A stretch of DNA of 37,654 nt from an uncultured Pelagibacteraceae bacterium (GTDB lineage: Bacteria > Pseudomonadota > Alphaproteobacteria > Pelagibacterales > Pelagibacteraceae): assembly GCA_902582875.1 (NCBI GenBank), contig CACHTV010000007.1, positions 1-37,654 on the forward strand, written 5' to 3'. Numbering within the stretch: position 1 is the stretch's first letter; each line of letters opens with the position of its first letter. Under the pieces are notes generated by a model. It saw only the letters and a program-made list of their open reading frames with translations, was not told the origin of the DNA and searched no databases. Shown here piece by piece: positions 7,781 to 21,066 of this stretch. Both the position numbers and the translations under genes were made by a program.

Positions 7781-8623
7781 CCCTTCTTTATAAGTTGGAT
7801 ACCTTAATCTAATTTTAAGGAAATTTTTCATATTTTTATTACTTACCTTTTTGGAGTCTTTATAAAATTCGTTGATCATCTTATTTTTAAATTTAGAAAT
7901 AGATATTGGTTTTAAAGATTTTATTTTTAATAATCTTGCAGCATAATTAGCTACTTCCATATTTGTTGAAGGCTTATCATCAGAAGCATTTAAAGTCATA
8001 GTCTTTCTTGGAGAGTAAAACATTTTTTTAATAATATTGGCCAAATCTTCTATTCTTATTCTTGAGAAATATTTCTTTTCTTTGACATAAGTATTATTTT
8101 TAAGAATTCTTTTAAGTGCATTGCTTTCTTTAGAATAAATGCCAGAAACTCTTAAAATATTTATATCAAGATTTGTTTTATTTCTAAATCTTACCCAATC
8201 ATTTTCTACTAATTTTCTACCTAGTCCAAATTTAGTTTTTCCTTTTAATTTTGAATTTTCATTTACCCAATTACCATTATGATTTCCATATACACTAGTT
8301 GCTGATAAATAAATTAATTTTTTAAAATTTGAATTTCTCAATAATTTTCTAAATTTTTTTAAAACTAAATCTTTTTTATTTTGTGGTGGTATTGAAATTA
8401 AAATATAGTTAGATTGTAATAATTCTTTAATCAATTTTTTATCATAGTTAGAATTTTTAAATTTAAAAGATCTGAATTTTTTTTTGTTAAAATGAAATAA
8501 GCTAGTCTTTTTTGTATTTGTCGCACAAAAAGAAAAATTTTTTTTTGAATTAATTAATTCTTTTACAAAGTATTTTGCCGTCTGGCCAAAACCAAAAAAA
8601 AAGAATTTATTTTTTTTCTTCAT
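7751..8623 (-). CDS. NAD(P)-binding SDR/epimerase-like protein (YeeZ-type)
   Basis: A 290-aa Rossmann-fold protein of the extended SDR (NAD-dependent epimerase/dehydratase) type. The nucleotide-binding loop near the N-terminus reads FFGFGQTAKYF, a GxGxxA-like pattern. The serine segment is YLSATSVYGNHNGNW. The usual Tyr-x3-Lys site appears as KFGLGRK, with Phe in place of Tyr, so normal SDR catalysis is doubtful. E. coli YeeZ-like proteins share this overall layout and have no well-settled function. The start ATG overlaps the gltB stop by one base (TAATG), giving translational coupling to glutamate synthase. Its 3' end overlaps the convergent hydrolase gene by 30 bases. Confidence 0.75.
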   Translation of the reverse strand: MKKKNKFFFFGFGQTAKYFVKELINSKKNFSFCATNTKKTSLFHFNKKKFRSFKFKNSNYDKKLIKELLQSNYILISIPPQNKKDLVLKKFRKLLRNSNFKKLIYLSATSVYGNHNGNWVNENSKLKGKTKFGLGRKLVENDWVRFRNKTNLDINILRVSGIYSKESNALKRILKNNTYVKEKKYFSRIRIEDLANIIKKMFYSPRKTMTLNASDDKPSTNMEVANYAARLLKIKSLKPISISKFKNKMINEFYKDSKKVSNKNMKNFLKIRLRYPTYKEGLKNIFNNFR

Positions 8624-11600
8624 TAAGCTGATTTAGATTTTAATGTTTTTATGGAAATAGGATTGTCGAGTTTATCTAACATCTCTACTGGACAAACCTG
8701 AATAAAATTTTTAAGCTCTTTATCAAAGTTATTAAGTATCTTTTTTACAATACTTGATTCTGTTTCATTGTAAAATTCCTTAAGCGTATCATTTAAATAT
8801 TTTTTCCAAAAATTTGTTTCTACCGATTGCCATATTATAGAGTTTGGATTTACGTAATTTTCAAAATTATTTTTTTCGTCATAAATAAAAGCCATACCTC
8901 CTGTCATTCCTGCTCCAAAATTATCTCCTACTTGTCCTAGTATAATAGCTGTTCCTCCGGTCATATATTCGCAACCATGCGCACCACAACCTTCAACTAT
9001 AGCTAGGCCACCAGAATTTCTTACAGCAAATCTTTCGCCAGCTTGCCCGGCTGCAAATAATTTTCCTGATGTTGCGCCATAAAGAACTGTATTACCAATA
9101 ATAGTATTTTCGTTTGATATTAGTTTACTTTTTAAAGAAGGGCGGACTATTATCGATCCTCCTGATAATCCTTTTCCAACATAATCGTTTGTATCTCCCT
9201 CAACAATCAGCTTAATCCCACTTGTTAAAAAAGCTCCGAGTGATTGTCCAGCTGACCCCTTAAGTTTAATATTAATTGTATCTGGTTTGAGTTTTTTATT
9301 ACCGAATTTTTTATAAACATAATGAGATAGTCTAGTACCAACCGATCTGAAAGTATTTTTTATATTATATTCAAATTCATTTTTTTTTGTAATTTCTATT
9401 TTATTTTTAATATCTGACCAAATTTTTTCATCCAAAGTATCAGGTACTTTATTAATCATTTTATATTTACTATATCTTGGATTGTTACCTGGATCTGCTT
9501 GAACTAAAAGCGGGTTAAGATCTAGATCATCTAAGTTTGAAGAGCCCTTATTTACTTGTGATAATAAATCTGTTCTTCCTATAATCTCATTAATTGATTT
9601 ATATCCAAGAAAAGCAAGTATCTCTCTAACTTCAGTAGCAACAAATGTAAAAAGATTTACAATTTTTTCTGGCGTTCCTGAAAATTTTTCTCTTAATGTT
9701 TTATCTTGGCTACATACTCCTACAGGACATGTATTTGAATGACATTGTCTTACCATAATACACCCCATTGCTACTAAAGATGAAGTTCCTAATCCATACT
9801 CTTCAGCACCCATCATAGCTGCAATTACTATATCGCGACCAGTTTTTATTCCACCATCAGTTTTTAAAGTAACATTATGTCTTAAATTATTTAAAGTTAA
9901 TATTTGATTTGCCTCAGTCAACCCCATCTCCCATGGAATACCAGCATATTTTATGCTTGTTTGGGGGCTAGCGCCTGTTCCGCCTGCATGACCAGAAATT
10001 AAAATTATGTCTGCTTTTGCTTTAGCTACTCCGGCTGCAATAGTTCCTATTCCAGTTGAAGCAACAAGTTTAACGCTTACTCTAGCTTTTGGATTAATTT
10101 GCTTCAGGTCATAAATTAATTGAGCTAAATCCTCAATTGAGTAAATATCATGATGTGGTGGAGGAGATATAAGAGTGACTCCAGGAGTTGAGTGTCTTAG
10201 TTTTGCTATTTCATTAGTAACTTTGAATCCAGGAAGTTGACCGCCTTCTCCCGGTTTAGCACCTTGAGCCATTTTAATTTCAATTTCATTTGCATTATTT
10301 AAATAATCAATTGTAACACCGAATCTTGCAGATGCTATCTGCTTCACTCTTGAATTAGCAGAATCCCCATTAGACAAAATTTTAAATCTCTTTGCATCCT
10401 CACCTCCTTCTCCACTACATGAAGCTCCTTTTATCCTGTTCATTCCAATTGCTAGAACCTCATGAGCCTCGGCTGATAATGCGCCATGAGACATGCTTCC
10501 GCTTCCAAAACGTTTTAAAATTTCATCAACTGGTTCCACTTCATTAATATCAATTGATTTTCTTTTATTTTTAAATTCCAATAAATCTCTTAGATTTATT
10601 GGAGGCAAATTATAAATACCTGATGAATACTTCTTATAAAGTTCGTAGGAACCTTTACCTACCGCGCTTTGTAACAAATGAATAAGATTACCTTGATGTT
10701 GGTGTTTTTCTCCACTTTTTCTATAACGATATAAACCTCCAATAGGTAATGCATAAACATTTTTACTTGTGAATTTTTTGTGTAATTCTTTAATTTTTGT
10801 CTCTATCCCTACAATGCCTATTCCTGAAATTCTTGAGGACATTCCTGGAAAATAGTCAGATACAATTGCTCTACTTAAACCAACTGCTTCGAAATTACAC
10901 CCTCCTCTATATGAGCTAATAACTGAAATTCCCATTTTAGACATTATCTTTAATAATCCTGAGTCGATAGACTTTTTAAACTTGCAAATACAATTTTCAA
11001 AATCTGATTTACCAAAAAGCTTTTTTTCATATCTTTGATATATGCTGTCTAAAGCTAAGTAAGGGTTTATTGTAGTAGCTCCAACTCCAATTAAAACTGC
11101 AAACGAGTGAGTATCCAATGCATCAGCACATTCAACATTTAAAGAACAATAGCCTCTTAGACTATTTCTAACTAGATGAGAATGTACTGCGCCTACAGAT
11201 AAAATACTCGGTATACTTGCTCTTTTATTAGAAATATTTTTATCAGATAGTATTAAAGTGCTACTTCCTTCTCTAACTGCAGTCTCACACTCAGTTTTAA
11301 TTGTCTCTATTCTATCTTTGAGAGAAGATGTTGTTTCAAAAGTGCAATCAATTATTTTAATTTTTTTTGAAAAGATTTTACAAAATTTACTAAATTGAGA
11401 ATTTGTTAAAATAGGACTATCTAATACATAAATATCCTCTTCAGTTAAATTATCAAAGTCGAGAATGTTTCCAAGATTTCCAAATCTAGTTTTTAAACTC
11501 ATGACTTTATTTTCTCTTAATGAGTCAATGGGTGGATTGGTAACTTGACTAAAGTTTTGTCTAAAATAGTGTGCAACTGGCCTGAAGTGACTTGATAAAA

Positions 11601-13119
11601 CAGCAACAGGAGTATCGTCTCCCATTGAACCAGAGGCTTCCTTGCCTTCTTCCGCCATTGGATGTAATATTAATTCTAGATCTTCTATGCTCAGACCAGA
11701 CAAATATTGTCTTTTTTTTAATTCCTCACCTATAAATTTGGCTTTTTCACTTTCTGTTGAAATCTTTTTATCCAGATCAATAATCTGTTTATTATACTTT
11801 TTGTAATCTTTAGCTAAATAGTCTTTTATTTCCATGTCTTTAAAAAGTTTTCCTTTTTTAAGGTCAATTGCTATTATTTGACCAGGTCCTAATTTTCCTT
11901 TTTCAATAATTTTTTCTTCTGGAATATTAATCATGCCAGTTTCTGACCCAGCAAAAAATAGATTATCAGATGTAATTGTATATCTTAAAGGACGTAATCC
12001 ATTCCTATCTGTGGAGGCTAAAACCCATTTAGCATCAGTTGCGCAGATAGCTGAGGGACCGTCCCAAGGTTCTATAGTGCTATTAAGAAAATTAAATAAA
12101 TCTTGGTGATTTTTTGAAACTGTTTTACTTCTCTTAGACCAAGCATCTGGTATCATCATCAATTTTATTAAGGGTGCCAATTTTCCTGAGTGTGTAAGTA
12201 ACTCAAAAACATTATCAAGGGCACCGGAGTCAGATGAGCTTCTTATAACAGGAAGTAAATCTTTTACATTTTCAAATAATGAGCTAGACATGTCTTGCTC
12301 ATGAATTTTCATCCAATTTATATTTCCCTTAAGAGTATTAATTTCTCCATTATGAGCAAGTGTCCTAAATGGCTGAGCTAAATCCCAACTTGGAAAAGTA
12401 TTAGTTGAGTATCTTTGATGAAAAATTGCAAATCTAGAAGTTAATTTTTTATCGTTTAAGTCAGGATAGAATTCAGCAAGCATTTCGGCTAAAAACATTC
12501 CTTTGTAAACAATTGATCTTGAGCTAAAAGAACAAATATAAAAATTTTTAAGCTGATTTTCTCTAGCAAGTTTTTCTATTTTTTTTCTAGCTTCAAATAA
12601 GTTTCTTTCTAGATCATTTGTCTTCAAATTTTCATTTTTTTTAAAAATTACTTGAGCTATTTCTGGTCTATTTCGTTCTGCTGTTTTCCCTAGAACATTT
12701 GAATTAACTGGAACCTGCCTCCATCCATAAATTGAATAATTTTTTTCAAGTAATACTGATTCAATAATTTCTCTACATTTTTCCTGATCGCTGTAATCAG
12801 TTCTAGGAAGAAATACCATTCCAACACAAATTCTTTTTGTTTCATCAAGTGTATGGCCAGTAGATATAATCTTTTCTCTAAAAAAATCTCCAGCTATTTC
12901 TATCTGAATTCCTGCACCATCTCCAGATTTACCATCAGCATCAACTGCTCCTCTGTGCCAAATAGCTTTTAAGGCCTCAATGCCATGTTCAACTATTTTT
13001 CTGGATTTTTTTCCGTCAAAAGTAGCAACCATACCCACACCACAAGCGTCATGTTCCATATTTTCATTGTACGAAAAATTTTTTGTAAGATTTTTTTTAT
13101 TTTTTAAATATCTTTCCAT
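8623..13119 (-). CDS. gltB: Glutamate synthase (NADPH) large subunit
   Basis: The large subunit of NADPH-dependent GOGAT (1498 aa, full length) converts glutamine plus 2-oxoglutarate into two glutamate, the second step of ammonium assimilation with GlnA. The class II amidotransferase domain begins at Cys26 (HDACGVGMV), which should become the N-terminal nucleophile after removal of a 25-residue propeptide. That supports the chosen ATG at 13119. The central domain is followed by the FMN-binding synthase domain with SGEGGEDAKRF and GQLPGFKV. The 3Fe-4S cysteines lie in CIMVRQCHSNTCPVGVC. A C-terminal GXGXG beta-helix domain follows (GSAGQSLGAFL to GDNFGAGMTGGMAF). It begins seven bases after gltD and is coupled to the epimerase-like gene downstream. 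Confidence 0.98.
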   Translation of the reverse strand: MERYLKNKKNLTKNFSYNENMEHDACGVGMVATFDGKKSRKIVEHGIEALKAIWHRGAVDADGKSGDGAGIQIEIAGDFFREKIISTGHTLDETKRICVGMVFLPRTDYSDQEKCREIIESVLLEKNYSIYGWRQVPVNSNVLGKTAERNRPEIAQVIFKKNENLKTNDLERNLFEARKKIEKLARENQLKNFYICSFSSRSIVYKGMFLAEMLAEFYPDLNDKKLTSRFAIFHQRYSTNTFPSWDLAQPFRTLAHNGEINTLKGNINWMKIHEQDMSSSLFENVKDLLPVIRSSSDSGALDNVFELLTHSGKLAPLIKLMMIPDAWSKRSKTVSKNHQDLFNFLNSTIEPWDGPSAICATDAKWVLASTDRNGLRPLRYTITSDNLFFAGSETGMINIPEEKIIEKGKLGPGQIIAIDLKKGKLFKDMEIKDYLAKDYKKYNKQIIDLDKKISTESEKAKFIGEELKKRQYLSGLSIEDLELILHPMAEEGKEASGSMGDDTPVAVLSSHFRPVAHYFRQNFSQVTNPPIDSLRENKVMSLKTRFGNLGNILDFDNLTEEDIYVLDSPILTNSQFSKFCKIFSKKIKIIDCTFETTSSLKDRIETIKTECETAVREGSSTLILSDKNISNKRASIPSILSVGAVHSHLVRNSLRGYCSLNVECADALDTHSFAVLIGVGATTINPYLALDSIYQRYEKKLFGKSDFENCICKFKKSIDSGLLKIMSKMGISVISSYRGGCNFEAVGLSRAIVSDYFPGMSSRISGIGIVGIETKIKELHKKFTSKNVYALPIGGLYRYRKSGEKHQHQGNLIHLLQSAVGKGSYELYKKYSSGIYNLPPINLRDLLEFKNKRKSIDINEVEPVDEILKRFGSGSMSHGALSAEAHEVLAIGMNRIKGASCSGEGGEDAKRFKILSNGDSANSRVKQIASARFGVTIDYLNNANEIEIKMAQGAKPGEGGQLPGFKVTNEIAKLRHSTPGVTLISPPPHHDIYSIEDLAQLIYDLKQINPKARVSVKLVASTGIGTIAAGVAKAKADIILISGHAGGTGASPQTSIKYAGIPWEMGLTEANQILTLNNLRHNVTLKTDGGIKTGRDIVIAAMMGAEEYGLGTSSLVAMGCIMVRQCHSNTCPVGVCSQDKTLREKFSGTPEKIVNLFTFVATEVREILAFLGYKSINEIIGRTDLLSQVNKGSSNLDDLDLNPLLVQADPGNNPRYSKYKMINKVPDTLDEKIWSDIKNKIEITKKNEFEYNIKNTFRSVGTRLSHYVYKKFGNKKLKPDTINIKLKGSAGQSLGAFLTSGIKLIVEGDTNDYVGKGLSGGSIIVRPSLKSKLISNENTIIGNTVLYGATSGKLFAAGQAGERFAVRNSGGLAIVEGCGAHGCEYMTGGTAIILGQVGDNFGAGMTGGMAFIYDEKNNFENYVNPNSIIWQSVETNFWKKYLNDTLKEFYNETESSIVKKILNNFDKELKNFIQVCPVEMLDKLDNPISIKTLKSKSA

Positions 13120-13126
13120 TTTAAAA

Positions 13127-14566
13127 TTAAGCAGCTTTAAATGATTTTTCTGCTTTGTTGTTTAAATATTTTTCTATTTGAACTGCCGCATCTCTTCCAT
13201 CTTTAATAGCCCAAACAACTAATGATGCACCTCTTACTATATCCCCTGCAGCGAACACTCCATCTAAATTTGTCTGCATTGTCTGTAGATTTATTTTTAT
13301 TGTGCCCCACTTTGATACGGCTAATGAATCTGAGCTAAATAATTTGGGTAAATTTTCTGGATCGAAACCTAAAGACTTAATAACTAAATCTGCTGAAATT
13401 CTAGACTCAGATCCAGATTTTATTACTGGTTTTTTTCTTCCTGAAGAGTCTGGTTCGCTTAGTATCATCTTGTTAATTTCTACCTCTTCAACTTTATCAT
13501 TTCCCAAAAATTTTTTTGGGCTAGTTAACCAAACAAATTCTACTCCTTCTTCTATTGCGTTAGCTACTTCTCTAGCGGAACCTGGCATGTTTTCTTGGTC
13601 TCTTCTATATAAACATTTAACAGATTTAGCTTTTTGTCTAACTGCTGTTCTCACACAATCCATAGCAGTGTCACCGCCTCCAATAACTACAACTTTTTTT
13701 CCTTCAGCATTTAAAGTTCCATTATCAAATAAATCAACTTTATCTCCTAAGCCTTTTTTATTTGATGCAGTTAAAAAATCTATTGCTGGAAATATATTTT
13801 TTAAGTCATGTCCTGGTAATTCTATTTCTCTTGCTTTGTAAACTCCTGTTGCAATTAGAATAGAGTCATGCTTCTTTCTTAATTCATCTAAAGATTTTTC
13901 TTTGCCAACCTCAAAATTTTGAATGAATTTTATTCCACTTTCTTTTAAAAGGTTTGTTCGTCTTTCAACAACAAACTTTTCTAATTTGAAATTAGGTATA
14001 CCATAAATAAGTAGCCCCCCTGGTCTGTCATAGCGATCATAAATGGTTATTTGATAGCCAGATTTTCTTAGTTCTTCTGCACATGCTAACCCAGCAGGTC
14101 CTGCGCCTATAATACCCACAGACTGTTTTAATTCTTTCTTAACTTTAATAGGCTTAACCCAACCTTTTTCCCATGCTGTATCAGTAATATATTTTTCTAT
14201 TGATCCGATGGTTACTGTTCCATGACCTGATTGTTCAATTACGCAATTTCCTTCGCATAGTCTATCTTGAGGGCAGATTCTTCCACAAACCTCTGGCATA
14301 TTATTAGTGCTTTGTGAAACTTCATAAGCCTCTTGCAATCTTCCCTCTGCAGTAAGCTTTAACCAGTCAGGTATATTGTTGCTTAATGGACAATGAATTT
14401 GACAAAAAGGAACACCACACTGAGAACATCTGCTAGACTGTTCTTTTGCCTTACTACTAATATACTCATTATAAATTTCATTAAAATCTTTACTCCTTTT
14501 CTTAGTATCTCTTTTAATAGGAGTTTCTTTTTTCAAATCAACAAATTGCAACATTTTTTTAGTCAT
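13127..14566 (-). CDS. gltD: Glutamate synthase (NADPH) small subunit
   Basis: The small subunit of GOGAT (479 aa, usual length) takes electrons from NADPH through FAD and two 4Fe-4S clusters to GltB. The N-terminal cluster ligands are Cys47, Cys50, Cys55 and Cys59 (CSQCGVPFCQIHC). A second group, Cys94, 98, 104 and 108 (CGRICPQDRLCEGNC), follows. The FAD GxGxxG motif is GAGPAG near residue 155 and the NADPH motif is VVVIGGGDTAMDC near residue 290. The C-terminal GVFAAGDIVRGASLVVWAIKDGR motif (its core AAGDIVRG) closes the FAD site. It is the first gene of a gltD-gltB-epimerase operon. A TATAAT box and a 17-bp palindrome lie 84-119 bases upstream of its start. Confidence 0.98.
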   Translation of the reverse strand: MTKKMLQFVDLKKETPIKRDTKKRSKDFNEIYNEYISSKAKEQSSRCSQCGVPFCQIHCPLSNNIPDWLKLTAEGRLQEAYEVSQSTNNMPEVCGRICPQDRLCEGNCVIEQSGHGTVTIGSIEKYITDTAWEKGWVKPIKVKKELKQSVGIIGAGPAGLACAEELRKSGYQITIYDRYDRPGGLLIYGIPNFKLEKFVVERRTNLLKESGIKFIQNFEVGKEKSLDELRKKHDSILIATGVYKAREIELPGHDLKNIFPAIDFLTASNKKGLGDKVDLFDNGTLNAEGKKVVVIGGGDTAMDCVRTAVRQKAKSVKCLYRRDQENMPGSAREVANAIEEGVEFVWLTSPKKFLGNDKVEEVEINKMILSEPDSSGRKKPVIKSGSESRISADLVIKSLGFDPENLPKLFSSDSLAVSKWGTIKINLQTMQTNLDGVFAAGDIVRGASLVVWAIKDGRDAAVQIEKYLNNKAEKSFKAA

Positions 14567-14649
14567 ATATTCTCAAAAATAGTCGAAAAAGCTAAAATTT
14601 AATAGTTTATTTAGGTAAGTATTAATTACCTTTTATATTGAAAAACCTT

Positions 14650-14685
14650 ATTATAAAGGATCAATTTTTGCATAACTCCTATGCA
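14650..14685 (-). promoter_or_regulatory. Putative gltD promoter with overlapping 17-bp palindrome
   Basis: On the minus strand a perfect TATAAT lies at 14655-14650, about 84 bases upstream of the gltD ATG. Immediately upstream, at 14669-14685, is a perfect palindrome TGCATA-ACTCC-TATGCA. It would cover the -35 position (14673-14678, GAGTTA, a poor match to TTGACA). The palindrome fits the TGC-N11-GCA spacing known for NtrC-type sites. A weak -35 overlapped by an operator suggests an activated or repressed promoter. The site is equally able to act on the divergent uppP gene. Confidence 0.5.
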
Positions 14686-14732: not shown

Positions 14733-15491
14733 ATGATTGAAATATTAATACTTTCTATAATTCAAGGGGTTACAGAATTTTTACCAGTTAGTTCTTCCTC
14801 TCACTTAATTTTAATTTCAGATTATATCAAATTTGATAACAAAGGCCTTTCCATTGATATCAGCTTGCATATCGGTTCTTTCTTAGCAGTTATAACCTTT
14901 TTTCAAAAAGAAATCTTTAACTTTGTTAAAAATAAAGAGCTTTTCTTTAAGGTTTTCTTGTCTTCAATACCTGTAATGATAACAGGATTCATATTATTTA
15001 AAACTGGTCTAGTTAATTATCTAAGAGTAATTGAAATCATTGGGTGGACTACATTAATATTTGGAATTTTATTATTTATAAGTGACAAATTTAATTTAAA
15101 TAAAAATTTGAAAAAAAACCTCAGCTATAAATATGTATTTATAATTGGTATATTTCAGGTGTTATCTCTTGTGCCGGGTGTAAGTAGATCAGGAATAGTA
15201 ATTACAGCTGCAAGATTTCTTAATTTTAATAGGGTGGACTCAGCAAAAATATCTTTTTTATTGTCAATACCTACATTGGCTGCTGTTTTGATTTTTGGAG
15301 TCATTAACCATATAGAAAGCCAAAATTTGGGTTTTACTATCTTAAATATATTTGCAATTTTATTTTCTTTTATCTTTTCTTTAATTACTATTAAATATTT
15401 TTTAAATTATATCAAAAATTTTAGTCTTAACGTATTTGTAATTTATAGAATTTTATTGGGAGTATTAATTCTGTATTTTGTTTATTCATAA
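14733..15491 (+). CDS. uppP: Undecaprenyl-diphosphate phosphatase (BacA family)
   Basis: An integral membrane phosphatase (252 aa, usual length) that recycles undecaprenyl pyrophosphate to the monophosphate carrier for peptidoglycan and other envelope glycans. Both signature motifs are present: the (E/Q)GxTEFLPVSSSSH stretch at the N-terminus (GVTEFLPVSSSSH) and the PGxSRSG motif (VPGVSRSGIVITAARF). About seven to eight hydrophobic helices are visible. It is divergent from gltD and tail-to-tail with the glycan operon downstream, whose enzymes are expected to use polyprenyl phosphate, so its location is functionally sensible. Confidence 0.97.
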   Translation: MIEILILSIIQGVTEFLPVSSSSHLILISDYIKFDNKGLSIDISLHIGSFLAVITFFQKEIFNFVKNKELFFKVFLSSIPVMITGFILFKTGLVNYLRVIEIIGWTTLIFGILLFISDKFNLNKNLKKNLSYKYVFIIGIFQVLSLVPGVSRSGIVITAARFLNFNRVDSAKISFLLSIPTLAAVLIFGVINHIESQNLGFTILNIFAILFSFIFSLITIKYFLNYIKNFSLNVFVIYRILLGVLILYFVYS

Positions 15492-15585: not shown

Positions 15586-16800
15586 TTAAAAATTTGGTTT
15601 AACCTTTTTTAAAACAAATAAACTTAATATTATTTGAATTGTCAATAAAGAAAGGCTATACCTTGGCAATATAAAAAAGAATGAAAATAAACCTATATTA
15701 GCAAAATAAAATAAAATTACGTAATTTGTCATTGAAAGCCTTAAGTTAAAAGCCAATATAATTCCTATAAAACTTGTAATTGCTAAAAGCATCTTTGGTA
15801 TAATATGCATTGGAGAATAGTAATTTTTGTAAGATGCATTCAAGTCAATAAACATAAATGATATAAATTTTTTGAAATAAAGACTCAAATATCTAACAGG
15901 ATCTTCTTTGATGAAAGTAATTGCTTGCTCCATTAAAATTTGATCTTGCAATAAATCATATTTTTCTAAAGGCCCTTGTGACTTTAAATTTTTTAATTTT
16001 AACTCCACTTCTGGAATAACTTTTTCAATATTGCCAAACATTCCAACACCTTCTACTTTTGTTCTTGGGTGATTGCCTTTAAGCAAATTATACCCGGATG
16101 ATTTGGTTACAGTAATCACACCAAATATATCGTAATTTCTGTAAAGATAAGGTGAAACAACAATTAAAGTAATTAAACTCATAATCAATATCTTACTTAG
16201 TTGTCTCTTTTTAAAATACAAATAAGCAACAGATAATATTGCAAAAATGAAATATTCACCTCTAAGTAAAATTAGCAAACCTGATGAAATTGAAAAAAGT
16301 ATAATGTGTTTATATCTTAGGACATTAAATAATTTAAAATAAGAGTAGAGAAAAATATTGAAAAGAAAAACCTGAAGTGTAACTGAAGAAATTTGAGAAA
16401 CTGCATAAACATTCATAGGAAATATTGCAAACACTAGAGTGCCTAGAATACTCAGTCTTCTAGAAAAAAAATTTAAAAGTATTTTGTGTGTCAAATAAAC
16501 TGTAAATATTCCCAAAAGAAGCTGTATCAAGAAAATTGCCCATAAAAATGTATCAGTATTTACAAAAAAGATTTTTATTGAATATAGGAACAATGGATAT
16601 AAGGGCGGCATAAATATATTAGGTACTGGAACATTTTGAATTGTATGAACACTTAAAATTCCATTCATTTCTAAATTCATTAATATAATTCCCCACTCAT
16701 TATCAACTTGCGAGTCTCTAAAAAAAATTATTGCAGCTAATCTAAGGGTAAAAGAAATTAATAAAATTATTAATAAATTATTTTTAACAATATATTTCAT
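15586..16800 (-). CDS. GT39/ArnT-like membrane glycosyltransferase
   Basis: A 404-aa polytopic membrane protein resembling the GT-C glycosyltransferases of the dolichyl-phosphate-mannose / ArnT group, which use polyprenyl-phosphate sugars on the periplasmic side. After the first helix the expected acidic loop is present (FFRDSQVDNEWG, Asp33 being a candidate catalytic residue), then MPPLYPLFLYSIK, typical of the PMT_2 family. About ten further hydrophobic segments follow. It is shorter than ArnT (about 550 aa), with only a small C-terminal domain. The start overlaps the stop of the SDR gene as ATGA, making it the last gene of the GT2-DprE1-DprE2-GT39 operon. The acceptor is unknown. Confidence 0.75.
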   Translation of the reverse strand: MKYIVKNNLLIILLISFTLRLAAIIFFRDSQVDNEWGIILMNLEMNGILSVHTIQNVPVPNIFMPPLYPLFLYSIKIFFVNTDTFLWAIFLIQLLLGIFTVYLTHKILLNFFSRRLSILGTLVFAIFPMNVYAVSQISSVTLQVFLFNIFLYSYFKLFNVLRYKHIILFSISSGLLILLRGEYFIFAILSVAYLYFKKRQLSKILIMSLITLIVVSPYLYRNYDIFGVITVTKSSGYNLLKGNHPRTKVEGVGMFGNIEKVIPEVELKLKNLKSQGPLEKYDLLQDQILMEQAITFIKEDPVRYLSLYFKKFISFMFIDLNASYKNYYSPMHIIPKMLLAITSFIGIILAFNLRLSMTNYVILFYFANIGLFSFFFILPRYSLSLLTIQIILSLFVLKKVKPNF

Positions 16801-17537
16801 TTAGTCAAAATTTTATATAATTTTACTAAAATTGAAAAAGGTATTATCTTTAAGGCAAAGCTAATTATTCCCCAATATTTTGGAAAAAAAGTTTTCTTAA
16901 AATAAGATTTTTTATTTTTAAAAACAATATGAGCTAACTTTTTCGTTGAGCCTTTTGGCAATACAAGTTTTTTTCCAAATGCAAGATTAGTATCTAAATA
17001 TCCAAGTGTATAAAATTGTATTTTTGAATTTTTAAATTTTTTTTCAAAAGCTAAGCTTTCAAAGAATGACTCTAAAGCTCTTTTAGCAGCTGCATAATTA
17101 GAGTTTAAGTTTCTTCCAAGAAGCCCTGAAACAGATCCAAATCCAACAATGGTTGAGTTATTCTCTAGATAATTACTTAACTTATTAATAGTAAATGAGA
17201 TTGACAAAAAATTTGCAACTATTAATTTTTGAACATTCTCTTCTTTTGTTTCAAAATTATCATTTTCAAACATTAAGCCTATTGGAAATAAAACGCCTTC
17301 AATATTCTTAAGAATTTCCTTGTTTGTTAAAAGCTTTTCATTTATCTCATTTAACGATGAGAAATCTATAGCTAAACACTCAACTTTTACTTTAAATCTT
17401 AACTCTAAATCTGACTTTAAAGCATTTAAATCTCTAAAATCTCTAGAAACGATAATTAAATTATTATTTTCCTGAGCAAATTTTATTGAGAGCTCTCTTC
17501 CTAGACCTGATGATGCTCCAATTATCAAATAACTCAT
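16797..17537 (-). CDS. DprE2-like short-chain dehydrogenase
   Basis: A 246-aa classical SDR with the NAD(P) loop GASSGLGRE (residues 7-15), catalytic Ser in GFGSVSG (about residues 135-137) and Tyr148-x3-Lys152 (NYAAAKRAL). The C-terminal part, FFPKYWGIISFALKIIPF, resembles the end of mycobacterial DprE2, which has a similar WAP-x-x-hydrophobic-IP pattern and is membrane associated. DprE2 reduces decaprenylphosphoryl-2-keto-ribose to the arabinose form after DprE1 oxidises C2'. The next gene upstream is a split DprE1-like oxidase (its C-terminal ORF overlaps this start as ATGA at 17534-17537), which strongly supports this role. The actual sugar epimerised is inferred, not shown. Confidence 0.75.
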   Translation of the reverse strand: MSYLIIGASSGLGRELSIKFAQENNNLIIVSRDFRDLNALKSDLELRFKVKVECLAIDFSSLNEINEKLLTNKEILKNIEGVLFPIGLMFENDNFETKEENVQKLIVANFLSISFTINKLSNYLENNSTIVGFGSVSGLLGRNLNSNYAAAKRALESFFESLAFEKKFKNSKIQFYTLGYLDTNLAFGKKLVLPKGSTKKLAHIVFKNKKSYFKKTFFPKYWGIISFALKIIPFSILVKLYKILTK

Positions 17538-17872
17538 AATTCAAGACGTTTTGAAACTTCAGATTTATAAATTCGTTTTTTATCAAACTCAAAAAGTTTT
17601 TTTTTGAATTCTGATGCGTATTTGTAAGTTTTATAAAAGATATCCTTATTAATCCTTGAGTCTTTTATAATTGAAGGTAAAATTTCATATTTTGAATATA
17701 GTTTATCCACCTCATTCAAAAACATTAGTGAGGATTTATTTCTTATAAAGTCAAAAGTTATACAAACTTTATTGTCTTCAAATCTTATCAAATTATGTTT
17801 TCCACTCATATTTTTTAAAGAAAATAATGCTATTGTGGGTTTATAAATTTTGTAAAGTTTTTTTAAATTCAT
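17534..17872 (-). CDS. DprE1-like oxidase, C-terminal part (+1 frame after homopolymer)
   Basis: This 112-aa ORF is best read as the C-terminus of the DprE1-like protein encoded just upstream, in the other frame. Its tail, with IKDSR, a central FYKTY and the terminal SKRLEL, matches the end of mycobacterial DprE1 (KDSR ... FHAMYP ... ARRLELL). Its first residues (MNLKKLYK) repeat the end of the first ORF in a shifted frame. It overlaps that ORF by 32 bases. Removing one base from the seven-A run (minus strand, 17859-17865) joins the two into one protein of about 442 aa, close to the family size. If translated alone from its own ATG it would lack the FAD domain and could not be active. Confidence 0.8.
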   Translation of the reverse strand: MNLKKLYKIYKPTIALFSLKNMSGKHNLIRFEDNKVCITFDFIRNKSSLMFLNEVDKLYSKYEILPSIIKDSRINKDIFYKTYKYASEFKKKLFEFDKKRIYKSEVSKRLEL

Positions 17873-18863
17873 CTAAAAACTGCTGTATATTATCTTGACT
17901 AATTAATAATTGAATTTCTAAAAATCCTTTTTTACCAAAAAAATTAAAGTAATTTTCTTTTCCATAAAATGGAAAAATTACTTTTAAAAAGTCCTCTTTT
18001 TTCTCTTTTTTTTCAAAGTTATTAAAATAAAAAAAAATAAAGTTAATCAAGCTAATAGAGAACTTGTTCCAGACAGGAAATAATAATGAATTAAATTTAG
18101 ATTTTTTTATCCTAAAATTTTTAAAATTTTTTGATGATTGAGAGTCAATATAATTTTCATAAATAATTCCTTTGCCAAAATTTCCTAAGCTGTCTGCCCT
18201 ATGCCATGAATAAATAAAGGAAGAATTTTTATTGTCTTTTTTGAAGTATTTTTCACATTCTTTAATATTATCCACGTTTATTTTTTTAGTATTAAAGCTT
18301 GTATTTTCTATTTGTACTAAGTTGAAAGTTACTTGTACTATCGTTCCAGTAAGTCCAAGACCTCCTATGGTAAGATCAAAAATATCTTTATTTTTGTTTT
18401 CTGAAAGCTCCAACCATCCATTTATTTTATGATACAGAAGAATGCTTTTAATCGATTTTCTAATAGTTCCATGTAAAGCACAGGACTTCCCGTGCGAATT
18501 TGCTGATACAGCTCCTCCAATAGTTATGGTTGGGTAACCCGGAAGCTGAGGTATCCATAAATTTTTACTCAATGTAAAGTTAAGAAAATCAATTAGTAAT
18601 ATACCGGCCTCTACAGTTATTGTCTTCTCATTTTTGTTAAAATTAATAATTCTATTAAATTTTTTAAATTCTAGCGAAACACCATTTTGATTTATACCTA
18701 AAGGGCTATAAGATAAATTAGATCCAGTATTTATAATCTCATCATAATCTCTGCTTATTCCTTCTAATTGTTTATATTTATCAGGTCTAGCGCATAAAAT
18801 GTTTAGAGAAAAATTTTTGTCAAAAGAAAAAGTTTTTTTCTCTTCGGTAATGCTATTTTTCAT
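17841..18863 (-). CDS. DprE1-like FAD-dependent oxidase, N-terminal part (frameshifted)
   Basis: A 340-aa FAD-binding oxidoreductase of the vanillyl-alcohol-oxidase/PCMH fold. The FAD domain includes TVEAGILLIDFL, then LPGYPTITIGGAVSANSHGK (residues 108-126), which corresponds to the VTVGGAIACDIHGK segment of mycobacterial DprE1 including its active-site His, and GGLGLTGTIVQVT. DprE1 oxidises the 2'-OH of decaprenylphosphoryl-ribose. The reading frame ends early at LDEFKKTLQNL, and the missing C-terminal substrate domain continues in the ORF at 17534-17872 in the +1 frame. The break is in a run of seven A. It could be an assembly error, a real null mutation or slippage-dependent expression. 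It starts directly after the GT2 stop (TAAATG). Confidence 0.85.
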   Translation of the reverse strand: MKNSITEEKKTFSFDKNFSLNILCARPDKYKQLEGISRDYDEIINTGSNLSYSPLGINQNGVSLEFKKFNRIINFNKNEKTITVEAGILLIDFLNFTLSKNLWIPQLPGYPTITIGGAVSANSHGKSCALHGTIRKSIKSILLYHKINGWLELSENKNKDIFDLTIGGLGLTGTIVQVTFNLVQIENTSFNTKKINVDNIKECEKYFKKDNKNSSFIYSWHRADSLGNFGKGIIYENYIDSQSSKNFKNFRIKKSKFNSLLFPVWNKFSISLINFIFFYFNNFEKKEKKEDFLKVIFPFYGKENYFNFFGKKGFLEIQLLISQDNIQQFLDEFKKTLQNL

Positions 18864-19565
18864 TTAAATTTTAATTTTATAAAATAACTCTAACATTTCT
18901 TTTATTGTAAGTAATATATTTTTTAAGCTTACTGTTGATCCCGTTCCAAAAGTTCTAGGATATGTGTGTATACCCATTTCATTAACATTATATCCTCCGT
19001 ATTTGCTTTTGATCGCTAATTCAGCTCCTATAAAAGGGCTATTAGAAACTAAAGTTATTTTTTTTAGAAGAGATTTTTTAATAAGTCGTGACCCAGTAGA
19101 AATATCTTTAAATTTAGTATGAAATAGTATTCTCAAAATTTTATTATAAATCCAAGAAATAACTATTCTACTTGTGTTGTATTTCTTTTTAAATCTATAG
19201 GTGATTACCAAATCTGAATTATTAGATTTTTTAATTAATTTTGAAAGATCAAAAACATCATATTCTGCATCACCGTCAGTTTGAAATATCCAATCAGATT
19301 TACAATTTTTCAATCCTGTTTTTATTGCAGCACCATAGCCTAAGTTTTTTTTATGGAAAATAACTCTTATATTTTTATTTTTATTTGAGATCTTTTTTGC
19401 ATAAATTCCAGATCCTTGGGGACAACCATCGTCTACTATTACTATTTCGTTTTTTTTTATATTTACTTTTTTAAGTATTTGAACGCTTTTTGAAATCATT
19501 TTTTTAACTGTTTTCCGGTCTTTATAAAGTGGAAACATTATACTTAAAGATTTTATTTTTTTCAT
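18864..19565 (-). CDS. Family 2 glycosyltransferase (DPM1-like)
   Basis: A 233-aa soluble GT-A glycosyltransferase. The N-terminus starts SLSIMFPLYKDRKTV, followed by IVIVDDGCPQGSG (nucleotide-binding Asp pair) and FQTDGDAEYD, the metal-binding DxD equivalent. NLGYGAAIKTGL is the typical GT2 segment seen in dolichol-phosphate mannosyltransferases and their polyprenyl-phosphate relatives. No transmembrane segments are visible. It heads a four-function operon (GT2, DprE1-like, DprE2-like, GT39-like). The plausible role is charging polyprenyl phosphate with a sugar for the later enzymes, but the donor is unknown. The start lies 13 bases downstream of tRNA-Arg on the same strand, so a shared transcript is likely. 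Confidence 0.88.
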   Translation of the reverse strand: MKKIKSLSIMFPLYKDRKTVKKMISKSVQILKKVNIKKNEIVIVDDGCPQGSGIYAKKISNKNKNIRVIFHKKNLGYGAAIKTGLKNCKSDWIFQTDGDAEYDVFDLSKLIKKSNNSDLVITYRFKKKYNTSRIVISWIYNKILRILFHTKFKDISTGSRLIKKSLLKKITLVSNSPFIGAELAIKSKYGGYNVNEMGIHTYPRTFGTGSTVSLKNILLTIKEMLELFYKIKI

Positions 19566-19578
19566 TTAAATCACTGCT

Positions 19579-19655
19579 TGGTGCGCCTGCTAGGATTTGA
19601 ACCCAGAACCTCCTGGTCCGTAGCCAAGCGCTCTATCCAGTTGAGCTACAGGCGC
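19579..19655 (-). tRNA. tRNA-Arg (anticodon ACG)
   Basis: The minus strand folds into a complete cloverleaf of 77 nt. The acceptor arms GCGCCTG and CAGGCGC are perfectly paired. The D-stem is GCTC/GAGC, and the anticodon arm CTTGG-CTACGGA-CCAGG gives anticodon ACG. The variable loop is AGGTT. The T-arm is CTGGG-TTCAAAT-CCTAG with one G-T pair. The discriminator is A and CCA is encoded. Anticodon ACG reads CGN arginine codons after A34 is changed to inosine. A TAAAAT sequence at 19674-19669 is a candidate -10 box. Confidence 0.96.
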
Positions 19656-19755
19656 CTTAAATTTAATTATTTTACTATTTGTATAAACAAAAACTAATTA
19701 ATGCTATAAATAAATTTCTTAGATTCCAAAAATATTATAATAATATGTTATAGAT

Positions 19756-21066
19756 ATGTCTTTATTCTCTTCAAAATATTTAACAAAAACAAATTATTTA
19801 AACTTACTTTTTGCAGCCATACCCATAAGTTTTATAGCTGGCAATATGATCATAAATATAAATATTTTGTTATTAATACTTTCAACTTTTTTTATTTACT
19901 GGAGAGAAATCTTTAAAATAAAATATTATTTTCTAGACAAATTTATTTTTTTATCTTTTTTATTTATTTTATTTACTGGCTTTTATAATGAGTATCATTT
20001 CCACTTAATGGAATTAACATGGAAAGGCCCATTTACTACAATTATGAAATCTTTTTTTTATTTAAAATATTTAGCTTTATATTTAGTTTTAAGATTTTTA
20101 ATAGAAAAAGATAATATTAGTCTTAAACCATTTTTTATCACTTGTTCTATATTTTCTTTATTTGTCTGTTTTGATCTGTTTTTTCAATTATATTTTGGAC
20201 AAGATATATTTGGTTTTAAAAGTACTGGAAGAAAACTTTCAGGACCGTTTGGAGACGAATTAATTGCAGGGGGCTACGTGCAAAGGTTTTCTTTATTTGC
20301 CTTTTTCTTGTTTCCAATTTTCTTCAAAACTGAAACTGAAAAAATGATTAAGTTTTTAATACCATTATTATTTATAATTTTTTTTTCAGGAATAATTATA
20401 TCTGGAAATAGAATGCCCTTAATTTTATTTTTGTTTACGTTCTTTTTAGTTATAATTTTTCAAAAACAAACAAGAAGATACCTTTTTTCCTTTTTAGCAA
20501 CTTTTGTAATCATATTTCTTATTTTATTTTCTTTTAATAAAGAAATTAGAATTAACTACCTAGATTTCAAAGCAAAAATTGTAAGGGTATATGAAAATTT
20601 ATCCTCAGATCAAAAAAACATACAAGATGACGGAAAAAACTATTACTATTGGGAATTTGCTAGCTTTTACGATACTTGGAAATTAAATAAATATATCGGT
20701 GGTGGTATAAAAAATTTTAGATATTACTGTCACCATAGACCAAATAAAGAAAATTATCCTAATTTTACTTGTAACATGCATCCACACAATTATTATTTTG
20801 AAATATTAACGGAAACTGGTTTAATTGGTTTTATTATAATCTCAATCATCTTTTTAAACATATTATATATTTCATTTTTTAAAAAATATTTTTCAAATTC
20901 AAATTTAAGAGACAACCATCTAATTACTCCTTTTATATTTTTGTTCATTACTGAAATATTCCCGATAAAAAGCACTGGTAGTTTCTTTACTACAGGTAAC
21001 TCGACCTATATTTTTTTGATAATAGCAATAATTGTTGCTCTTACCAGAAAGCAAAATTTAAGTTGA
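19756..21066 (+). CDS. O-antigen ligase / Wzy-like membrane protein
   Basis: A 436-aa polytopic membrane protein with about ten to twelve hydrophobic helices and one large periplasmic loop (roughly residues 280-345). The loop ends in MHPHNYYFEILTETGLIGF, the Wzy_C signature (H-N-x-x-x-E-x-x-x-E-x-G) of O-antigen ligases and polymerases. RMPLILFLFTF before the loop matches the conserved Arg region. Such proteins transfer polyprenyl-linked glycans to lipid A core or other acceptors in the periplasm. A TATAAT lies at 19736-19741 just upstream, without a clear -35. It is divergent from the tRNA/GT2 operon and probably belongs to the same envelope-glycan pathway. Confidence 0.85.
   Translation: MSLFSSKYLTKTNYLNLLFAAIPISFIAGNMIININILLLILSTFFIYWREIFKIKYYFLDKFIFLSFLFILFTGFYNEYHFHLMELTWKGPFTTIMKSFFYLKYLALYLVLRFLIEKDNISLKPFFITCSIFSLFVCFDLFFQLYFGQDIFGFKSTGRKLSGPFGDELIAGGYVQRFSLFAFFLFPIFFKTETEKMIKFLIPLLFIIFFSGIIISGNRMPLILFLFTFFLVIIFQKQTRRYLFSFLATFVIIFLILFSFNKEIRINYLDFKAKIVRVYENLSSDQKNIQDDGKNYYYWEFASFYDTWKLNKYIGGGIKNFRYYCHHRPNKENYPNFTCNMHPHNYYFEILTETGLIGFIIISIIFLNILYISFFKKYFSNSNLRDNHLITPFIFLFITEIFPIKSTGSFFTTGNSTYIFLIIAIIVALTRKQNLS

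Follow-up and report, generated by a model that had tools for sequence, protein, structure and literature searches.

Between the divergent genes gltD and uppP of SAR11 bacteria lies a 17-bp palindrome, here called element A, whose near-perfect conservation stands out from the variable DNA on either side; it is thus very probably a genuine operator, that is, a predicted docking site for a regulator. The palindrome was singled out in a preliminary description of a 37,654-nt stretch of DNA from an uncultured Pelagibacteraceae bacterium (the window), and it is half of a two-element region, the other half being a second palindrome, element B. SAR11 bacteria are among the most abundant marine cell types, and our literature search, with most subscription papers outside its reach, found no published description of this site. 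A is a highly conserved site that occurs about once per genome and has a defined partner in B, which reduces the question of the regulator to a binding test on one DNA fragment.

The gltD-uppP locus and the conservation of element A

The preliminary description took the window to come from a SAR11 genome, and this origin is borne out: the window gltD matches that of 'Ca. Pelagibacter ubique HIMB058' at 88%, and its named relatives are Pelagibacteraceae or Pelagibacterales records (source genome 0.91 Mb, 73% complete; the window is its contig 7). On the minus strand, gltD (glutamate synthase small subunit, 479 aa; positions 13127–14566; Pfam Fer4_20 and Pyr_redox_2) is followed by gltB (large subunit, 1498 aa; 8623–13119; Pfam GATase_2, Glu_syn_central, Glu_synthase and GXGXG), and uppP/bacA (undecaprenyl-diphosphatase, 252 aa; 14733–15491; Pfam BacA) lies on the plus strand. 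Element A, TGCATA-ACTCC-TATGCA (TGCATAACTCCTATGCA), defined by its sequence and by its conservation over 70 loci, occupies positions 14669–14685 (minus strand; centre 14677), its centre lying at a distance of 111 nt from the gltD ATG and 56 nt from the uppP ATG, upstream of both. The sharing of this region by a divergent uppP, as originally described, is a general feature, found in 70 of 70 loci of the window's genus (g1), with 154–172 nt between the genes, in 59 of 61 loci from other genera, the two exceptions stopping at contig edges, and in 10 of 10 loci of a sister family. Past uppP, window positions 16797–21066 encode a short-chain dehydrogenase, an FAD-binding protein and an O-antigen ligase-like protein, and resemble a cell-surface polysaccharide cluster.

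As first reported, the 17 bp of element A form a perfect 6-5-6 inverted repeat with the TGC-N11-GCA spacing of NtrC sites. From one genome alone this is insignificant, because a perfect 6-bp inverted repeat with a 3–8 nt loop turns up in 59% of 2000 shuffled versions of the gltD-uppP intergenic region of the window, and TGC-N11-GCA is not enriched in the window (3 found vs. 3.9 expected). The window's genome contains three matches to TGCATA-N5-TATGCA with at most one mismatch, and the two besides that at gltD lie inside reading frames.

A gltD search of 101 same-genus genomes returned at least 75 places in at least 74 genomes, and 70 loci were analysed; those left out were in G004 (partial), G061, G063 and G094, together with one of the two G071 copies. 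Intact A sites 111–114 nt from gltD are listed also for G061 and G063. Scored against the consensus GCATA-nCWGn-TATGC (maximum 12.5), element A reaches at least 11.5 in 70 of 70 g1 loci, a score attained by none of 7000 dinucleotide shuffles, 17 of which reach at least 10.5. Mean pairwise identity is 0.97 across the 12 specified columns of element A and 0.51 across the other 132 columns, five of which exceed 0.9; apart from two blocks, corresponding to A and B, and a few scattered columns, the alignment is mostly unconserved.

Since the consensus was built from the same 70 loci, other genera provide a fairer, independent check. Among the matches listed, 126 genomes of the family have gltD, and 61 loci outside g1 were analysed; two of these (L147 and L159) had too little upstream DNA and were set aside, so that 59 remained, and genera g15 and g16 were left out. 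Element A scores at least 10 in 45 of the 59 loci, spread over 8 of 11 further genera: 17/18 in g3, 11/11 in g6, 9/9 in g11, 2/2 in g12, 1/1 each in g14, g17 and g18, and 3/3 in g13, where it is asymmetric. It is absent from the gltD-uppP loci scored in g2 (0/5), g4 (0/4) and g5 (0/4). Among named public genomes, which are partly the same as those of our own set, 80 loci were returned, and 77 of the 78 usable ones carry element A at a score of at least 10. The alignment of the region across SAR11 genomes, proposed at the outset as a check, thus went in favour of the palindrome, and a chance origin of element A is rejected.

In two sister-family loci (L433 and L434), element A scores 11.5 of 12.5 and lies exactly 61 bp from B, as it does in g3, and a weak A (9.5) occupies the same place in a third (L435). 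In a GltD+UppP tree rooted on the sister family, g2, g4, g5 and g13 appear to group together, apart from a second clade that takes in the remaining genera sampled; the tree comprised 66 of 67 chosen loci (L144 was dropped), six loci whose ends were incomplete and the majority of g1 loci having been excluded beforehand. The presence of element A in L433 and L434 at the g3 spacing suggests that it may predate the family and was subsequently lost, or that it arose twice.

Element B, the probable target gene and the promoter region

Element B is a 19-bp palindrome on the gltD side of element A, with the consensus AGGTmA-N7-TkACCT. In the window, where it was defined by alignment of related loci, it reads AGGTAA-N7-TTACCT at positions 14613–14631 (minus strand; centre 14622), which puts the centres of A and B 55 bp apart. 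Mean pairwise identity over its 10 core columns is 0.93 in g1, and it is present in 76 of the 78 usable loci of named public genomes. The centre-to-centre distance between A and B is 54–56 bp in g1, 55–57 bp in g6, 54–55 bp in g11, g12 and g14, and 61 bp in 18 of 18 g3 loci and also in g17 and g18; g13 is the exception, with 30 bp in 3 of 3 loci. On visual inspection, g2, g4 and g5 show either one half of B or a palindrome that has diverged near its place. B-like elements are present in g4 loci, which lack A, and also in the sister family, where TCA-N7-TGA palindromes occupy the place of B, as a pair in 7 of 10 loci and singly in 3 of 10; of the two elements, B thus seems the older and the more widely distributed. 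In the seven sister-family loci with two such palindromes (L427, L429 and L431–L435), their centres are ~75 bp apart and the second lies close to the gltD start codon.

B contains T-N11-A, which we take to be the core of LysR-type sites. It is not a repeated regulon motif: in 24 genomes, among the matches listed, sites with one mismatch are rarer than, or about equal to, those of a reversed control. Nor does B qualify as a RegA site, despite a half-site (GGTCA/TGACC) resembling some RegA ChIP sites, as g2 and g5 have markedly different elements there and their RegA is nearly unchanged.

The distance from element A to the gltD ATG is 107–129 nt in every A-bearing genus, while that to the uppP ATG, estimated from intergenic lengths, is ~28–30 nt in g11, g12 and g14, ~55 nt in g1 and ~63–73 nt in g3, g6 and g18. 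Because the distance to the gltD start is the steadier, we assigned A to gltBD, and we consider gltBD rather than uppP its main target with good confidence. It is very improbable that A is mainly a uppP element which affects gltBD only through proximity. Such a role would suit its position ~28–73 nt from the uppP start, the control of envelope genes by NtrX in Rhodobacter described in a ChIP-seq study (PMC7240162), and a sigma-70-like -10 element for uppP in g1, found 38 bp from the middle of A in 17 loci and 39 bp from it in 17, and so in at most 34 of 70. The A-uppP distance, however, varies more than twofold, whereas A stays at a tightly held distance from both B and gltD, within most genera as well as between them.

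The preliminary description had also placed element A over the weak -35 of a gltD promoter with a perfect TATAAT (positions 14650–14655, minus strand), as expected of an activator at a sigma-70 promoter. This did not hold up: TATAAT is present at the same offset from A in only 2 of 70 g1 loci, the window included, and the argument from a weak -35 fails with it. No firmly conserved -10 was found between A and gltD, and the best candidates vary by genus: the best offset in g1, which falls within B (-2 from its centre), is occupied in 56% of loci, a candidate 31 bp past the centre of B is present in 75% of the 12 g11, g12 and g14 loci, and no offset exceeds 50% in g3. Transcription starts of the SAR11 strain HTCC7211 have been mapped by an environmental primary-transcriptome study (PMC5069720).

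A palindrome of this type could also act as RNA, with element A forming the hairpin of a leader element or attenuator instead of a DNA site. Folding of the region's minus strand is slightly more favourable than that of shuffled sequences (z -2.0), in 66 of 70 g1 loci the arms of the A core could form all five pairs, and one g6 locus (L139) has changed both arms symmetrically, the latter two observations fitting a DNA palindrome equally well. We nevertheless rejected a structured RNA leader, and rate this explanation as extremely improbable: the outer pair is non-pairing in 8 of 18 g3 loci (T-C in 6, A-C in 2), 51 of 70 B elements in g1 are mismatched (44 A-G, 7 C-T) where a hairpin requires a pair, and the region has no match in Rfam. 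Moreover, the central C-W-G is symmetric, which no 5-nt loop would need, and this symmetric centre, together with the non-pairing changes in the arms, argues for a DNA site read by a dimer.

Further occurrences of element A and candidate regulators

Sites resembling element A were searched with one mismatch in the 101 same-genus genomes and also in 26 genomes of other genera. Among the matches listed, element A is near-unique per genome, and the intergenic sites that recur are those of gltD and, in a number of g3 genomes, of regA. Twenty further g1 sites were inspected, of which 19 lie inside reading frames and one at the junction of two; eight more listed non-gltD sites of g1 are outside these 20. 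In the 26 genomes of other genera, the exact matches listed comprise those at gltD, those in the regA region (G115 and G136) and four elsewhere, three of which were inspected and all found in genes. GCA-N9-TGC, the geometry of element A, occurs in 0 of 21 regions upstream of ntrY, one of the places where the preliminary description had suggested looking for further sites. The proposed nitrogen regulon is therefore not supported by the ntrY regions, by the 19 of 20 other sites in reading frames or by the recurrent sites, and a regulon of several nitrogen or envelope genes sharing A is likewise unsupported among the matches listed.

The first clue to regA was a set of six g3 matches between the divergent genes odc and regA. 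As these loci (L075–L080) were found via the site itself, they were excluded from a separate count of 25 g3 regA loci picked independently of the site: in 9 of these A scores at least 11 in the odc-regA intergenic region, compared with 0 of 3800 shuffles; the regA-promoter sites of g3 are thus real. Outside g3, none of 45 regA loci reaches 11, and two g1 loci score 10.5. Other features of the odc-regA intergenic regions (L228–L262) were noted by eye: a separate block like ATGTAAAG in most genera, including A-lacking ones, replaced by ATGTCAAC in most g11 loci, and, upstream of regA in four g6 loci (L239–L242), TTGTCGCAT, which resembles one half of a RegA site as seen in Rhodobacter ChIP data and might reflect RegA autoregulation.

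According to the preliminary description, SAR11 genomes are reported to lack GlnB, GlnD and NtrBC but to keep NtrYX, and gltBD was reported to rise under nitrogen limitation. A phosphoproteomic study (PMC13198564) credits SAR11 with sigma-70 and sigma-32 as its only sigma factors and with four two-component systems, including NtrY/NtrX and RegB/RegA. From ChIP-seq in Rhodobacter sphaeroides, GCA-N9-TGC has been proposed as the NtrX site, and autoregulation of NtrX was suggested there; the same study reports envelope targets for NtrX and no evidence for a role in nitrogen metabolism (PMC7240162). A different site, CAA-N2-5-TTG, is reported for the NtrX of Brucella and Sinorhizobium (PMC9223101).

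The spacing TGC-N11-GCA equals the geometry of GCA-N9-TGC, and element A fits both. GCA-N9-TGC is found in A in the window, in 61 of 70 g1, 10 of 11 g6 and 9 of 9 g11 loci. Because of this match to the Rhodobacter motif, NtrX is the best candidate for the protein that reads element A, and with NtrC-type geometry on one side and NtrX as an NtrC-family regulator found in these genomes on the other, NtrX binding to A would be the most likely mechanism; judged from sequence, we hold this identification only tentatively. Among the matches listed for 34 genomes, NtrX is largely complete in 28 (in one of them in two frames), represented by its C-terminal part in one and not found in five, among them the window's own genome, which is 73% complete. 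In a g5 genome (G252:C1:945829-947162), NtrX is split into two frames of 79 and 379 aa by a frameshift or an assembly error. In 16 genomes searched for HTH_8 domains, the matches were NtrX, RegA and, in three g3 genomes, an additional protein of ~365 aa; a single match came from each of two genomes, that of the window among them. The earlier suggestion of NtrX remains a sensible one as regards the motif, and has lost the nitrogen regulon that went with it.

Several observations count against NtrX: the lack of a site at ntrY, the 30-bp A-B spacing of g13, and the presence of GCA-N9-TGC in only 8 of 18 g3 and 0 of 3 g13 loci. Rhodobacter NtrX is reported to have shown no nitrogen targets, and Brucella NtrX, which is identical to SAR11 NtrX over GMERSALHRKLK (the recognition helix), is reported to bind CAA-N3-5-TTG, a core absent from element A. 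Finally, A is missing in genera that keep NtrX: the three searched members each of g2, g4 and g5 retain it with a nearly unchanged recognition helix. As both NtrX and RegA are kept in A-lacking genera, the presence or absence of either regulator does not explain the loss of A.

The last point also bears on the possibility that A is a real gltBD operator read by another family, such as a dedicated Lrp/AsnC, GntR, MarR or LysR protein, which was lost in the A-lacking genera. The absence of A from g2, g4 and g5 in spite of nearly unchanged NtrX and RegA helices would follow directly, as would the A variants of g3, which are unmatched by a change in either helix, and a nearly single target among the matches listed is what a dedicated local regulator would have. 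On this explanation, it would be by coincidence that A has NtrC-type spacing and agrees with the motif proposed for NtrX; we regard the explanation as possible, at about one chance in three or slightly better. Operation of A by RegA, the regulator of the RegB/RegA redox system, autoregulating regA in some species and controlling gltBD, is unlikely in our view. RegA has a Fis-type helix-turn-helix, is matched in 143 of 147 genomes (in a few by related receiver domains only) among the matches listed, and has the g3 regA sites and the two weaker g1 sites in its favour; the ChIP sites of Rhodobacter capsulatus RegA are 15-mers that often have GC at either end (PMC5359404). Most of the sites shown, however, have GCG/CGC ends that A lacks, the RegA helix hardly varies between genera that have A and genera that lack it, and no regA locus outside g3 reaches a score of 11.

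We thus prefer, at somewhat less than an even chance for the reading as a whole, elements A and B as operators of gltBD with NtrX at A. Element A would be an operator of the gltBD operon held by selection in most of the SAR11 genera examined; a homodimeric helix-turn-helix protein would recognise both TGCATA arms together with the C-W-G at the centre, all as double-stranded DNA, and A would act jointly with B as a second palindromic operator, usually 54–61 bp nearer gltD. The geometry of A is that of NtrC-family Fis-type helix-turn-helix domains, and NtrX bound there would set gltBD transcription from a sigma-70 promoter, possibly also affecting the divergent uppP, a target that would suit the reported envelope role of NtrX in Rhodobacter. 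Conservation, symmetry, A-B spacing and motif match are observed features of the loci; the identity of the binder, the direction of its effect and the transcription start are inferences. A more far-reaching version, with a two-operator gltBD switch shared with uppP, NtrX at A coupling nitrogen assimilation to cell-wall synthesis by way of what is essentially a single site in each genome, and regA as a second target in some species, appears doubtful. If NtrX binds A, SAR11 NtrX would gain a nitrogen target, and GCA-N9-TGC would be favoured over the competing CAA-N-TTG motif; binding by another protein would instead reveal what regulates an operon central to metabolism.

Comparison with known systems

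Fis-type helix-turn-helix proteins fit TGC-N11-GCA spacing, and the enteric NtrC consensus is TGCACC-N5-GGTGCA. Like these enteric sites, element A has outer TGCA arms, 17 bp and TGC-N11-GCA, but its inner bases are TA/TA where theirs are CC/GG. As SAR11 has only sigma-70 and sigma-32 according to the phosphoproteomic study (PMC13198564), action as a sigma-54 enhancer is inapplicable. With the NtrX motif proposed for R. sphaeroides (PMC7240162), element A shares the inverted GCA/TGC arms, their 9-bp spacing and an envelope gene, uppP, on one side; it differs in the strong constraint on its inner TA-nCWGn-TA, in gltBD as its probable main target and in the absence of a site at ntrY. The Brucella recognition helix matches that of SAR11 NtrX, but unlike the Brucella and Sinorhizobium NtrX sites, A has no CAA...TTG, and B has it only when its variable bases fit.

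The sites of RegA/PrrA/ActR (PMC5359404) are likewise inverted repeats of 15 bp that frequently begin and end in GC and have a Fis-type reader, but A, as GCATA...TATGC, lacks their GCG/CGC ends. A further likeness to this system is that certain g3 species have A in the promoter of regA. Glutamate synthase itself, as gltBD or gltAB, is controlled by Lrp and ArgR in E. coli and by GltC in B. subtilis. The sequence of element A differs from the sites of these regulators, and what the three systems have in common is a glutamate synthase operon served by a dedicated upstream operator region.
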